From a virus: a stretch of 22,014 nt of DNA. Under the pieces are notes generated by a model, which was given only the letters and a program-made list of their open reading frames with translations, did no database searches and had not been told where the DNA came from. How positions within the stretch are numbered: the stretch's first letter is position 1; each line of letters opens with the position of its first letter. Where the stretch lies: positions 1-22,014 of the IMG/VR virus record IMGVR_UViG_3300035034_002232; one strand, written 5' to 3'. This document shows positions 4,312 through 15,287 of this stretch, one piece after another. A program made the position numbers and the translations under genes.

Positions 4312-5730
4312 ATGACAAAAGAAATCAAATATGTGACAACTTCTCGATCTCAGGATAATGAGGATCATAAGAATAATGATGATGATCCCCGTTATTCTAC
4401 TCCGAAGAAAGAAGTGAAGTCTGCCAAACTGACGCAGATGATCCAGAAGCCTAAGGATACCGTAGATCTTGCTACCTTCTTTCGTAACGAACCCGAGACG
4501 CGATCCAGAAAGGATCTACTCACGGCCTATCATAATAACCCTGCTTTCTTTGCGGTCGCCAATAAGATTTCAAATGATGTGGCTGCAACTATATGGAAGG
4601 GATCGGACTTTGATACCAGAGCGAAGGTCTTAGATTCCAGTGTCCTAGCAGATCTGGCAAAAGATCCCTCGTCTTATATGAGCCCTGCCTCTTTTTGGAA
4701 GATCGTTTCCATCTATCACGAAGTGTTAGGAGAAGCGACTATTATCATTGATGACGAGCCTGATGATCCGAACCGAGTTATTGATCTCATACCCGTACCT
4801 CCTACTGCTTGTCAACTGGAGCAAAATGGATCGGATCAACTATATTGGAGAGTGGACTTCAATCATTTTCAGAGAACGATCCCCTTAGATAGAATGATGG
4901 TATGGAAATCCCCTCATACCCTAGACCCTTTTGGTAGGGGTAAAGGCGTGGGACATGCTCTTTCTGATGAGGTAGAGATCGAGGAGTACGCAGCCAAGCA
5001 CGAAGCTAGTGAGCTTTTTAATCACGCACGCCCTGACTTCATCGCACATGGAGTAGGAATGGATGAGGATGCTCGTCAGGCGTTCAAGAAGGCATGGAAT
5101 GACAACTTCACAGGTCCCAACAATAGAGGCAAACCTCTCTTTACTGCCAGTGAAAGTGGTGGTGAAGGTAGTCATGGTGAGATTCAGATCCATGAACTGA
5201 GTCGACCCCTTAAAGATCTAGGTCTGATAGAACTACGCAAGTTTTCACAAGACGTGATCAGACAAACCTTCGGTGTCAGCCCTGAGATCTTAGGGATTGT
5301 AGAAAATAGTAATAGAGCAACCATTTCAGCCGCTCAAAAGATCTATGGTGAGAACGTCTTGATCCCTAGACTGGAGTCATTGTGTAGCGAGTTCACACGA
5401 ACGATAGGTCCTCTCTTGCAAGCCCGAGGAGAGCATCTGGACTATGAATCACCTATTCCACCTGATATCAATCTCAAAAGAGATATCATGAAAGACCATC
5501 CTCAGGCATTTACGGTCAATGAGGTACGAATCCTAGCAGGAGAGCCTCCACTTGAAGGTAGAGAAGGTGGTGATGAGCTAATGGCTCCTGCTCCTGCTCA
5601 GATGATGAATAATGGTGGTAATAAGAGTTATTATGATCACCCTCATCATCATGATCACAGATCAGTAAAAAAAAAGTCAACAGAAAACTCAGTAGCATAC
5701 CTCAAGGCTTTGAAAGCAAGAATGTCCTGA
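4312..5730 (+). CDS. Portal protein (HK97-type)
   Basis: Forms the dodecameric portal ring at the head vertex through which DNA enters and leaves; 472 aa. Diagnostic segments are DPFGRGKGVGHALSDEVEIE (about 204-223) and FGVSPEILGIVENSNRATIS (about 320-339), the latter typical of Phage_portal (PF04860). The N-terminal 40 residues are polar with an Asn/Asp run, and the C-terminus is His-rich (DHPHHHDH) and then basic. AGGAAG at 4300-4305 precedes the start. Near the 3' end an A9G tract (5667-5676) contains the in-frame heptamer A AAA AAG. The -1 frame is open from 5655 into the head morphogenesis gene, so a fraction of ribosomes may make a portal-MuF fusion of 718 aa. Confidence 0.95.
   Translation: MTKEIKYVTTSRSQDNEDHKNNDDDPRYSTPKKEVKSAKLTQMIQKPKDTVDLATFFRNEPETRSRKDLLTAYHNNPAFFAVANKISNDVAATIWKGSDFDTRAKVLDSSVLADLAKDPSSYMSPASFWKIVSIYHEVLGEATIIIDDEPDDPNRVIDLIPVPPTACQLEQNGSDQLYWRVDFNHFQRTIPLDRMMVWKSPHTLDPFGRGKGVGHALSDEVEIEEYAAKHEASELFNHARPDFIAHGVGMDEDARQAFKKAWNDNFTGPNNRGKPLFTASESGGEGSHGEIQIHELSRPLKDLGLIELRKFSQDVIRQTFGVSPEILGIVENSNRATISAAQKIYGENVLIPRLESLCSEFTRTIGPLLQARGEHLDYESPIPPDINLKRDIMKDHPQAFTVNEVRILAGEPPLEGREGGDELMAPAPAQMMNNGGNKSYYDHPHHHDHRSVKKKSTENSVAYLKALKARMS
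5667..5676 (+). promoter_or_regulatory. Putative -1 frameshift site (A9G tract) in the portal gene
   Basis: Nine A followed by G. In the portal frame the codons are AAA AAA AAG, so 5670-5676 reads A AAA AAG, the slippery heptamer of E. coli dnaX. A -1 slip continues with GTC at 5676 and reads without stop to 6464, through the head morphogenesis gene. No strong downstream hairpin and no upstream Shine-Dalgarno-like stimulator is obvious. A homopolymer miscount would give the same picture. Confidence 0.5.
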
Positions 5731-5795
5731 AAACAGAAGAGTCCGAATCCTTACTGGATTACCATGAAAGTGAAGACGGACCCATAGCACAAAAC

Positions 5796-6467
5796 TTGGA
5801 TGCGGTCCAGACCGAACATAAGGCTGCTTTTGTAGGAGGCATTAGGAACATAGAAGATCCACAAGCCTTAGACGCTTTTGTAGAAAACATGAGAAGAGAC
5901 TGGAGGCCCCTTTACCAAGAAGCAGCCTTAGAGGGTCTGTTGGTCATCGAGAGAGCTTCTATTGCTCTCATGCGTGAAGAGATGGGGGTCAACCCAGAGA
6001 GTCTTGTAGAAGAGGAATCAGACCGTATCCGAAGGCACGCGAATCGAATAGGAACGGAAGCTTATGATGATGTGAATACCGCACTTCTGGCACAATATGT
6101 TGACTTCATTGAAAACGAAGAAGACTTTGAAGAGTTCGAGCCTTATATCTTAGCTACCTCAACCCTAGCAGGGTTTGCAGTAGGGGGGGTAGCTGCTGCT
6201 TTTAATGAAGGCAGAGAACGGGTGGTGTCCTTTCTCCAGGGATTTAATGGAGAAGATGAAGATGATGATGAACAGGTAATAATGATAATAGCTACACGAA
6301 CCGCCGTCATGGATAAAAACACTTGTGACCAGTGTCAGGCATTACATGATACTAGCTATCCTTATGACACCCCCGATTATCATGCTAACAAACCACCTTT
6401 ACAGTGTGTCTGGATGCCGAACTGTAGATGTACCATGATCTATAATACTGAAAAAGAAGAAGGCTAA
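5796..6467 (+). CDS. Head morphogenesis protein (Mu gpF/SPP1 gp7-like)
   Basis: Minor head protein usually bound to the portal and packaged into the procapsid. The C-terminus shows the Phage_Mu_F (PF04233) signature: TCDQCQALHD at about 177-186 and PNCRC at about 208-212, four cysteines likely to bind metal. A hydrophobic Gly/Ala stretch (about 129-142) and helical N-terminus precede it. The start is doubtful: position 5796 is a TTG with no Shine-Dalgarno sequence, and the first in-frame ATG (5889) also lacks one and would cut into the domain. The frame is open upstream without stops to 5655, overlapping the portal gene by 76 bases. It may therefore be made mainly as a -1 frameshift extension of the portal from 5676, adding about 40 residues before residue 1 here. 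Confidence 0.85.
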   Translation: MDAVQTEHKAAFVGGIRNIEDPQALDAFVENMRRDWRPLYQEAALEGLLVIERASIALMREEMGVNPESLVEEESDRIRRHANRIGTEAYDDVNTALLAQYVDFIENEEDFEEFEPYILATSTLAGFAVGGVAAAFNEGRERVVSFLQGFNGEDEDDDEQVIMIIATRTAVMDKNTCDQCQALHDTSYPYDTPDYHANKPPLQCVWMPNCRCTMIYNTEKEEG

Positions 6468-12750: not shown

Positions 12751-13281
12751 ATGTCAAACCCAAGAAACAAGCAACACAAGAAGTTCACAAATCTCCTAGG
12801 TGAAGACGTAGAATACGTGTCCTCGCCTTTTGGAGCAAAGCACAGCATATCCCTTCTTCCGAAGGTAATGAAGCTAGTAGGAGGTCCCTTAGGACACCTT
12901 ACGGATGCGATTGACACACTAGAAGACGTTCAAGGCTCTAAGCTGAATGGACAGGCACTAGTCACCTCAGTCACCACTTTGGCAGACTTTATCGAGGAAG
13001 AGGGGATGTCTTTTATTGAGAAGATGTTGGAGTCAACCTACAGAAAAGGCCCTGATGATGATGATTTTTGTCCGCTGAAAGGAGCCTATTTCAGTGAAGC
13101 CTACAAAGCAAACCTTTCTGAACTAGCGAGAGCAGTCTTCTTTGCTATTGAGGTCAACTATGCAGGTTTCCTAAAAAAGCATCTAGGGGACCTCTCATTG
13201 ATGGAGTTCGTCCAGGAAAGGATGCAAGCCAAAGGCGAATCCAAAGAAGAGTTGAATCCCTCTCAAAAAGAAGCTCAGTAA
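12751..13281 (+). CDS. Tail assembly chaperone, short form
   Basis: 176 aa. It lies between the tube and the tape measure, where phages encode the chaperone that coats the tape measure during tail assembly. The N-terminus (KQHKKFTNLLGEDVEYVSSP) and the helical end (ARAVFFAIEVNYAGFLKKHL) resemble chaperones of DUF3277/DUF3383 phages. The codons for Leu-Lys-Lys near residue 143 form A AAA AAG at 13173-13179. The -1 frame is open from 13152 to 13448, so a longer form of 232 aa is likely. The ribosome site AGAGAA is weak. Low sequence conservation is normal for this class, so identification leans on position and the two-frame layout. Confidence 0.8.
   Translation: MSNPRNKQHKKFTNLLGEDVEYVSSPFGAKHSISLLPKVMKLVGGPLGHLTDAIDTLEDVQGSKLNGQALVTSVTTLADFIEEEGMSFIEKMLESTYRKGPDDDDFCPLKGAYFSEAYKANLSELARAVFFAIEVNYAGFLKKHLGDLSLMEFVQERMQAKGESKEELNPSQKEAQ
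13173..13179 (+). promoter_or_regulatory. Putative -1 programmed frameshift site (A AAA AAG)
   Basis: In the chaperone frame this reads A AAA AAG, identical to the dnaX heptamer. An imperfect stem (GGACCTC at 13188-13194 with GAG at 13204-13206 and GTCC at 13210-13213, three-base bulge) begins eight bases later, a spacing that suits -1 frameshifting. The stem is small, so its role is uncertain. Confidence 0.6.
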
Positions 13282-13448
13282 GTGACAACAACTGGCTATT
13301 CTTGCGCATACACAGGAAATCCTCAGAATCATTACATGATCTCATGTATGAATGGACCCTAGACGAGATCATTGAGTACCACGAAGTGTTAGATATCGAA
13401 GCCGAAACCGAACGGATCTCTTATGAAGAGTCCAAAAAGAAGAGCTAA
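13179..13448 (+). CDS. Tail assembly chaperone, -1 frame extension (GT-like segment)
   Basis: A second coding segment in the -1 frame with respect to the chaperone gene. Between the chaperone stop (13281) and the tape measure it encodes a convincing stretch: NNWLFLRIHRKSSESLHDLM, then YEWTLDEIIEYHEVLDIEAE and a charged end KKKS. The WLFLR-hRKS-WTLDE-Y-VLD pattern resembles the second part of phage tail chaperone pairs. There is no ATG with a ribosome site: the only ATG (13344) lies mid-segment without a Shine-Dalgarno. Expression by -1 frameshift from the upstream gene, as in lambda G/GT or P2 E/E', is therefore likely. The part read between 13179 and 13281 looks less protein-like, so a later shift point is possible. 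Confidence 0.7.
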   Translation, partial: ASRGPLIDGVRPGKDASQRRIQRRVESLSKRSSVSDNNWLFLRIHRKSSESLHDLMYEWTLDEIIEYHEVLDIEAETERISYEESKKKS

Positions 13449-13454
13449 AAGATT

Positions 13455-15287
13455 ATGATTATTGCAGAACTAGTCTCGATGCTCTCCTTTCAACAGGATG
13501 AGAAGTCAAAGAAAAAGGTTGATAACACCTTGGATGGCTTTACTTCGTCTGTGAAAGGATTGAAAACTGCGGTTGCAGGCTTCGTGGCAGCAATGGTGAC
13601 GGGTCACGTAGCCCAACAGGTTAATCAGGTTGCCCAACAAGCAGCAGGCTTTGTACGGACCTCTCAGGCGGTAGGGTTAACAACAGATGCGGTTCAAGAA
13701 CTAACCTTTGCTTTCACCAGATCTGGTGTGGAAGCTGACGAGCTACGAAATGTGATGTCTCAGATCACTTTGACTTCCAAAGAAGCTGCGGAAGGAAGTG
13801 AAGATCTGGTCAAAACATATCGCAACCTTGGGATCTCGGTTAGTGATCTGAAAAAGATGGATCCCGATGAGACATTCATGGCAGTCGCAGAAGGTATGCG
13901 TAACATGGACGATCAGCAAGACCAGTTACGAGCAGGTATGAGACTCTTTGGAGAGGATATGGCAGCAAGACTTATGCCTGTCCTCTTAGAAGGTCGAGAA
14001 GGGTTAGAAGAGATACGAAATAGAGCCAATGAACTTGGTATCGTTTTTGACAATGACCAGTTGCAGAATGCCTTACAATATTCAGAGACGATGAAGGAGA
14101 CGGGAGAGGCTGCTAATGCTATCAAGACAGCCTTTGTGCTTAACCTTCTACCTTCTTTAACAGAAGTAGGTAAAGAGACAACTACCTGGATACTGGCCAA
14201 CAGGGAGTTCATTGAAAGTGGAATGGAAAAGGTAGTAGATGCTCTAGCTTTCGCTTTCCGTATGCTAATCGCTTCTGTGAGAGTAGGAAATATGCTCTTT
14301 CAGGAAATGGTAGAGTTTGCGGGTGGAGCTAATAATGCTTTTAAGATGTTGGCTTTCACCATTGCTGCCATTGCGTTCGCCAAACTCATCATGGGGATAC
14401 AGGCATTAGGAACTGCGGGCCTCATCGCATGGATGAAAATGCTGGCACCTATCGTCCTCTTAGCAGCGGGTATCCTAGGTATCCTCCTAGTGGTAGAAGA
14501 CTTCTTAGCTTTTATGGATGGAGAAGGTTCTCTATTAGGAGACATCTTCGGAGACAGTTCTGGTGATATCGCACATGCGACTTCTTTGGTAGGCGCTTTT
14601 ATTACTGCTATCATTGTACTCATTGGTGTTGTCATAGGTTGGCCGGTAGCCTTGGCAGTTGCTATTGCTACTCTCATTGGACTCGTCTGGAAAAACTGGG
14701 ATGAGATCAAGCAAGCAACCAATATGTTTTTAGAGTGGATGTCCTCAGCCATAACAGGTGCTTTCGATTCCTTTGTGGCAGCTATCTCCAGACTAGGAAA
14801 CTCTATATGGAATCCTATCAGAAATGGCTTCGTTGCCATGATCGATTTCATTATGAATCTGTGGGATGCTTTGGTTGGTGATTTCTCCAATGGAGTGTCT
14901 GAGATTACAGGAGCCATAGGAGACACCGTAGAAGGAGCTAAAAACTTGGTCAACAGGTTACCCGGTGTTCAAATCAACAGTCCAAATCGAGAAGAAGGGC
15001 TGATCCCGCATATCATGGGAGATGGTGGGGATATCGTAGCCGCAGGAATAGGTGGTGGTGCTCAAGGTCCTCAGATCGATATGACAAGGGAAAGGCACAA
15101 AAGCGAGAACCAGAGGCCAGTAGACCAATCCATACGCATCGATAGTGATATCACTATCGAAGGGTCTAACCTCTCACAAGAAGAGCTGAGAATGGCAGTC
15201 AGTGAAGGTCTTATTGGAGCCTCAGATCTTCTCAAATCCTATAATGATATGGATATTACAACTGATAATCAAACTGAGGATCTATAA
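13455..15287 (+). CDS. Tape measure protein
   Basis: 610 aa, the longest gene. It sets tail length and is injected with the DNA. The N-terminus (ELVSMLSFQQDEKSKKKVDN, then LDGFTSSVKGLKTAVAGF) is typical of tape measures of small contractile phages. Long helical, Ala/Glu/Gln-rich stretches follow. Two hydrophobic blocks (about 295-345 and 378-412) could insert in the host membrane. The C-terminus is polar and Gly-rich. At about 0.15 nm per residue the tail would be near 90 nm. The gene starts six bases after the chaperone extension ends. No lysozyme or peptidase domain is visible. Confidence 0.93.
   Translation: MIIAELVSMLSFQQDEKSKKKVDNTLDGFTSSVKGLKTAVAGFVAAMVTGHVAQQVNQVAQQAAGFVRTSQAVGLTTDAVQELTFAFTRSGVEADELRNVMSQITLTSKEAAEGSEDLVKTYRNLGISVSDLKKMDPDETFMAVAEGMRNMDDQQDQLRAGMRLFGEDMAARLMPVLLEGREGLEEIRNRANELGIVFDNDQLQNALQYSETMKETGEAANAIKTAFVLNLLPSLTEVGKETTTWILANREFIESGMEKVVDALAFAFRMLIASVRVGNMLFQEMVEFAGGANNAFKMLAFTIAAIAFAKLIMGIQALGTAGLIAWMKMLAPIVLLAAGILGILLVVEDFLAFMDGEGSLLGDIFGDSSGDIAHATSLVGAFITAIIVLIGVVIGWPVALAVAIATLIGLVWKNWDEIKQATNMFLEWMSSAITGAFDSFVAAISRLGNSIWNPIRNGFVAMIDFIMNLWDALVGDFSNGVSEITGAIGDTVEGAKNLVNRLPGVQINSPNREEGLIPHIMGDGGDIVAAGIGGGAQGPQIDMTRERHKSENQRPVDQSIRIDSDITIEGSNLSQEELRMAVSEGLIGASDLLKSYNDMDITTDNQTEDL

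Follow-up and report, generated by a model that had tools for sequence, protein, structure and literature searches.

How a minor head protein stays at few copies beside a twelvefold portal is an old question, and the head genes of one uncultured phage raise it in a specific form. In this phage (IMGVR_UViG_3300035034_002232; the window hereafter, meaning the whole stretch of 22,014 bases analysed), the frame of a MuF-like head protein opens within the portal gene, in -1 relative to it. How is this frame entered? A preliminary description had proposed a -1 frameshift at A AAA AAG that joins the two proteins. From the comparisons reported here we consider it probable that the A9 run in the portal gene is a slippage site, by which one gene would give both portal and portal-MuF and which would set their ratio.

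Portal gene, A9 tract and overlapping frame

The head locus comprises the following features.

4312..5730, + strand: portal ORF (PF04860, phrog_2662); 472 aa, the product without slippage
5667..5675, + strand: A9 homopolymer, the putative slippage tract, read directly; G5676 follows
5670..5676, + strand: A AAA AAG, a slippery heptamer of the portal frame; A AAA AAA at 5667-5673 overlaps it
5677..5730, + strand: portal C-terminal tail STENSVAYLKALKARMS, read only without slippage and overlapping the MuF frame
5655..6467, + strand: MuF-like frame, stop-free, -1 relative to the portal; 5676-6467 would be fused to the portal after a slip

The portal ORF matched the PF04860 profile with E=1.5e-36 (126.7 bits against a cut-off of 39.1) and the portal family phrog_2662 with 9.9e-46, and its ATG is preceded by the Shine-Dalgarno-like GATAAGGAA. 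Codons across the tract read GTA AAA AAA AAG TCA (5665-5679). This A9 is the sole homopolymer of at least eight within the window. With G5676 it forms an X XXY YYZ heptamer in the zero frame with an open -1 frame (A AAA AAG, 5670-5676), and its length of nine within coding sequence reaches the threshold taken for transcriptional slippage (PMC1088944). The portal frame stops at TGA 5728-5730, and over 5677-5730 the coding score was ambiguous in this frame and in that of MuF. Our reading of the sequence reproduced what had been described before: a MuF frame that is stop-free from 5655 to 6467 and begins inside the portal gene, a dnaX-type heptamer where both frames are open, and a product of 718 aa with a -1 slip at A AAA AAG beside one of 472 aa without it.

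In the mechanism we propose, the A9 would lie in a flexible linker between portal and MuF domains, which in this portal clade are normally one fused protein. Translation without a slip would end 17 codons after the tract and release the portal; a -1 slip of the ribosome on A AAA AAG, or the addition of one A by RNA polymerase, would lead into the MuF frame. If few of the 12 portal subunits carried MuF in this way, the ratio of the minor protein would be fixed without a separate start site. We infer that slippage occurs at some rate and that both forms would enter virions.

Neither the tract nor the heptamer is more frequent in the window than expected. Synonymous shuffling of the window genes gave 0.97 A9 runs (1 observed) and 2.6 heptamers (2 observed, in about 6,000 codons), so that the unusual feature is their location, not their count. 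The -1 frame is open for at least 80 codons at just 1.1% of codon positions, and both zero-frame A AAA AAG heptamers are found there (probability about 1e-4). The second belongs to a tail gene.

12751..13281, + strand: tail assembly chaperone (PF21822 Phage_TAC_15, E=1e-12; phrog tail assembly chaperone)
13173..13179, + strand: second zero-frame A AAA AAG, within the chaperone gene, the only other one of the window
13179..13448, + strand: extension of the chaperone in the -1 frame, which stays open until the tape-measure gene

The tape-measure gene starts at 13455 (phrog_8125, 6.7e-39), and the 89-aa extension in front of it had one weak family match only. Chaperone and extension have the appearance of a gpG/gpGT-like frameshift layout. 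Two other genes were observed upstream of the terminase, a NUMOD4/HNH homing-endonuclease-like gene (352-1344) and a small KH-domain gene of KhpA/B-like type (1603-1848).

Translation and identity of the MuF-like frame

Two codons of the MuF frame come into question as internal starts.

5796..5798, + strand: TTG, weak candidate start without Shine-Dalgarno, within a predicted helix; judged unused
5889..5891, + strand: first ATG of the frame, without Shine-Dalgarno, within a predicted helix; judged not to be a start

That no ATG precedes 5889 and that TTG 5796 lacks a Shine-Dalgarno, as reported earlier, was confirmed: the calculated Shine-Dalgarno energies were -0.1 kcal/mol at the ATG and only -3.2 kcal/mol, with a spacing of 14, at the TTG. 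All 27 other listed gene starts in the window are ATG (27/27), most of them normally spaced from a GGAG/GAGG/AGGA-type element. The candidates are located 66 nt (TTG) and 159 nt (ATG) downstream from the portal stop. A codon-usage model trained on the other genes of the window scored the MuF frame at +7.6 over 5731-5795, where in-frame sequence averages 6.9 and off-frame sequence -8 to -11, and at +18.1 over 5796-5888. An AlphaFold model of the MuF-like part, started at 5676 (pLDDT 69.8, alignment of 35 sequences), was confident from about residue 31-36 in this numbering, upstream of TTG 5796, which is residue 41 within helix 36-57; ATG 5889 is residue 72 within helix 62-103. The lack of a start with a Shine-Dalgarno, the early codon usage and a predicted fold that begins upstream of the candidate starts together indicate that the MuF frame is most likely translated by entry from upstream.

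A strong Shine-Dalgarno-like AGGAGG was also seen within the MuF frame (5832-5850), shortly upstream of ATT 5841/ATA 5850. It is probably incidental, encoding Gly-Gly in a segment that resembles FIGGL of phage Roos.

The assignment of the frame 5655-6467 as MuF-like draws on several signals that are weak but agree. PF04233 (Phage Mu F / SPP1 gp7) matched with E=1.1e-4 and 23.3 bits, under its cut-off of 29.6, which is why we call the frame MuF-like and do not file it as a member of that family. PHROG matches were to phrog_4728/2841 (head morphogenesis), and a profile of fused tails found the frame at 7.8e-7 in a 3-frame search. The frame follows the portal, matches MuF relatives and ends with the C-terminal Cys pair typical of them (CRC end), of which, across 36 sequences, C250 never varies and C252 hardly does. 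Foldseek returned viral minor capsid and head morphogenesis models at a probability of about 1 with TM scores of only 0.25-0.43, and a fold search of the PDB gave no significant match.

Fused and separate MuF in relatives

Scanning IMG/VR and GTDB genomes with profiles yielded 168 portal loci, 138 of them distinct. MuF was recognised beside the portal at 98 loci, in a single in-frame ORF at 91 and in another ORF at 7, the window included. The window portal is homologous to the portals of the fused relatives, and its own fusion needs a slip or one extra A. The idea of a portal-MuF fusion is therefore well supported, by these 91/98 loci, by the lack of a usable MuF start and by codon usage and fold upstream of the candidate starts.

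Among the unfused loci, L053, L070, L072 and L139 have a MuF gene with an ATG or GTG start, and in L107 an extra small ORF stands before MuF. L053 and L070 were considered as -1 splits and rejected, since their MuF starts with GTG at the portal stop and a slippery site is absent. At L099 (1165-2154) an apparently broken portal-MuF fusion changes frame without a slippery tract; it is possibly an assembly error or a pseudogene and gives a base rate for broken fusions. Isolates with a separate MuF gene include Cellulophaga phi12:1, Marinomonas P12026, Pseudoalteromonas SL25 and others; their MuF starts with ATG or GTG at the portal stop, in some cases downstream, and a search at their portal ends for a slippery site opening the MuF frame found none. 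The portal of Faecalibacterium phage Roos (714 aa, E=3e-36 to the window portal) ends with a MuF-like CRC.

Profile, pattern and TerL searches located no relative with more than 36% portal identity to the window. Single-protein pattern scans gave no close kin, blastn of the window against phages gave no match, and the TerL-based search found nothing close. A DNA pattern spanning the A-tract had two matches, both unrelated and due to chance. Searching genomes of the class and order to which a Clostridia host belongs, and of the class of the UBA1221 host, yielded few extra fused genes.

Homopolymers at the portal-MuF linker

Runs of at least nine identical bases (A, T, G or C) were counted in 95 fusion genes dereplicated at 75%, including isolates, for which the linkers were set by hand. 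Seven runs were found in linkers (5,287 codons) and none elsewhere (65,425 codons). An earlier count over 145 fusion genes, with the linker bounded by profile columns, had put all 12 runs of at least nine A into the linkers (8,194 codons), the remaining 98,888 codons being free of them. The linker hypothesis came from the same data as the first counts; the later scan, which contributed many relatives of L140 and further tracts, and the isolates are more independent. All seven runs are situated 39-51 codons past the portal domain, and the window tract at +33. The chance that all seven fall in the linker is about 1e-8 by raw position and about 3e-4 with the amino acids held fixed in a synonymous shuffle. 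As this shuffle expects 3.6 runs within the linker and 7.8 outside, against the observed 7 and 0, retention in the linker and purging elsewhere both contribute. In the same AT-rich loci, neighbouring ORFs have no such run in 174 kb and non-ORF DNA has 12 in 64.7 kb, a rate that the linkers exceed about six-fold (Poisson 2e-4). This restriction of nine-base runs to the linker of fusion genes appears to be a new result.

By lineage, runs of at least nine occur in 7 of the 39 fused lineages that are AT-rich and in no GC-rich ones, so the tract is not essential to the family. The expectation that homologues share a slippery tract was thus borne out in 7/39 AT-rich fused lineages and failed in the other 32, the nearest relatives having 36% portal identity. 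In GC-rich genes, the linkers showed no enrichment in general X XXY YYZ heptamers.

Two of the tracts were found in sequenced isolates, where the genes carry no annotation beyond portal protein.

L356 (Bacillus phage Silence), 829-2931: T9-bearing portal-MuF gene
L357 (Geobacillus phage GBK2), 336-2393: T9-bearing portal-MuF gene

Their proteins (700 and 685 aa in full length) are 58% identical. Both tracts, AGT TTT TTT TTG in Silence and AAT TTT TTT TTA in GBK2, have the same phase as the window, with the heptamers T TTT TTG and T TTT TTA. The tract of L320 (GTA AAA AAA AAG) is exactly that of the window, and L323 (ATA AAA AAA AAG) shares its phase and heptamer. L140, L202 and L289 have AAA AAA AAA G. 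The seven relatives all encode the fusion in one frame; portal alone would result there from a -1 slip, with a -1 stop 1-4 codons after the tract in 7/7, as at 44% of control linker positions. The polarity of the window is the reverse, with portal by default and fusion after a slip, and its combination with a slippery tract was seen in no other relative.

Constraint on the tract varied between groups. In five sequences of the L289 group AAA AAA AAA is invariant, in a linker otherwise full of indels and in genes where 37% of conserved codons vary synonymously. Several members of the YEKKYK group lost A8 by synonymous change, and the constraint is hence not universal. A large group of related phages comprises L140, whose fused gene comes from a UBA1221 MAG, and L246-L287; many of its linkers have A8 (GAA AAA AAA) or A9, and others have lost the tract synonymously. 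In the L289 group alone, a hairpin of 5-6 bp (GCCCTG/CGGGGC) directly follows the A9 (L289, L291, L292, L294 and L301). C-to-T changes preserve it by G-U pairing, neighbouring codons vary little, and it is modest in strength, with z about -2 in two of the five. A role as stimulator of slippage is possible.

For the window, the part of the earlier proposal that puts MuF on only some portal subunits gained from the restriction of nine-base homopolymers to the linker in relatives. A broader reading, which we hold tentatively and with a little less than even confidence, is that the evolution of a nine-base A/T tract at the joint, in either polarity, is recurrent among portal-MuF phages with AT-rich hosts; the tract would act as a recoding switch for portal composition, with MuF on a fixed fraction of the dodecameric portal.

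Alternative explanations

The window might also hold an ordinary in-frame portal-MuF fusion whose contig lost one A of an A10, by sequencing or assembly error or by a replication-slippage mutation. The in-frame fusion is the rule of the clade, one added A restores it, homopolymers are the commonest sites of indels, and such breaks do exist in these collections, as the apparent one at L099 illustrates with no slippery tract at all. The other identified structural genes of the window look intact, however, and the -1 layout of the chaperone is normal, so the contig is not error-rich. An A10 would moreover be slippery itself, its loss altering the polarity of the site and not its presence, and the linker homopolymer result in the family is independent of any A lost in this contig. 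Such a loss seems rather unlikely to us. We regard as very improbable an independent MuF protein whose translation starts within the gene, at TTG 5796, at ATG 5889 or at some non-standard codon, and is coupled to portal termination. Several unfused relatives and isolates do have a MuF gene of their own with ATG or GTG near the portal stop, but most of them start at or near that stop, whereas the candidates of the window lie well downstream, lack a Shine-Dalgarno and fall within predicted helices, with 5731-5795 already coding-like.

Nine-base runs could, on the other hand, be tolerated and not used. Disordered linkers rich in Lys would contain them, a slip there would cost a MuF whose loss is harmless, and elsewhere they would be purged as slips destroy the protein. 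Amino-acid content indeed explains part of the linker excess, the depletion beyond the linker is strong, and the YEKKYK members drop A8 synonymously. Against mere tolerance speak a linker rate about six-fold over that of non-ORF DNA of the same loci, the T9 of Silence and GBK2, which encodes Phe-Phe and not Lys, and the narrow range of positions. We think this explanation unlikely and retain slippage at the A9 as the preferred one.

Proposed slippage by ribosome or RNA polymerase

A ribosomal -1 slip and one A added by RNA polymerase would give an identical product, and we rate the two about equal. The heptamer A AAA AAG, the phase shared by 5/8 sites including the window, and the same heptamer in the chaperone gene would favour the ribosome. 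The run length of nine and the lack of stimulators would favour the polymerase: selection against A/T runs in many bacterial genomes appears at length nine (PMC1088944), the A9 of Thermus dnaX slips such that half of the product is short (PMC1088944), and tssM1 slippage likewise occurs without stimulators (PMC4256274). No stimulatory RNA structure was found at the window tract (fold z=+0.77 and +0.54, for folds free of pseudoknots) and none common to the tracts; CTCATCATCATGATCACAGATCAGT, upstream of the window heptamer, contains no Shine-Dalgarno-like or purine-rich element, and Rfam and tRNA scans were empty. Of the dnaX-type ribosomal shift proposed originally, the heptamer with its open -1 frame stood; as a mechanism the shift is one candidate only: downstream structure and upstream element are absent, and an A9 is equally a site of transcriptional slippage.

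Comparison with known systems

If the proposal is true, a slippage tract at the fused portal-MuF joint would answer the copy-number question for this clade and bring to the portal a recoding familiar from tail chaperones. Annotation is affected as well: a fused gene whose linker holds a tract may yield two proteins, and split genes like that of the window resemble separate genes or pseudogenes. The sequenced isolates Silence and GBK2, with T9 at the joint, make the idea directly testable.

In dnaX, an A9 (Thermus thermophilus, transcriptional slippage) or the heptamer of the window (E. coli A AAA AAG, ribosomal -1) leads to two products that share their N-terminus (PMC1088944, PMC3711429), as we propose for the window. 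Its polarity is that of the in-frame fusion relatives; the window, in contrast, concerns a phage head gene with a short default product and lacks the Shine-Dalgarno-like element and hairpin that stimulate E. coli dnaX. A short default product from which a slip leads to a long one is known from Citrobacter rodentium tssM1, where transcriptional slippage on A11 supplies both products, needed in a set ratio (PMC4256274), and from Shigella mxiE, where transcriptional slippage restores the long product (PMC1088944). These are other proteins, and slippage was measured there whereas it is predicted in the window. Closer in function is the lambda gpG/gpGT-type chaperone frameshift, which sets a ratio of short to extended product in a phage morphogenesis gene and whose counterpart in the window has the same A AAA AAG; there, however, a tail chaperone is affected, whereas the portal extension would be a separate virion domain.

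In Microbacterium clusters EA/EB (PMC7302621), Roos and Arthrobacter phages, portal and MuF domains likewise follow each other in that order, fused in a single frame, unlike in the window. No nine-base tract is present in Roos or in the GC-rich fusion genes tested, and the literature on portal-MuF fusions, as far as our incomplete search covered it, holds no report of slippage at the joint. In SPP1, the portal gp6 brings only few copies of gp7 (MuF) into the head (PMC6316719). MuF on the portal and few copies per head are also what we propose for the window, where a single gene would take the place of the two separate genes of gp6 and gp7 and a minority of slipped subunits would give an SPP1-like low MuF copy number.
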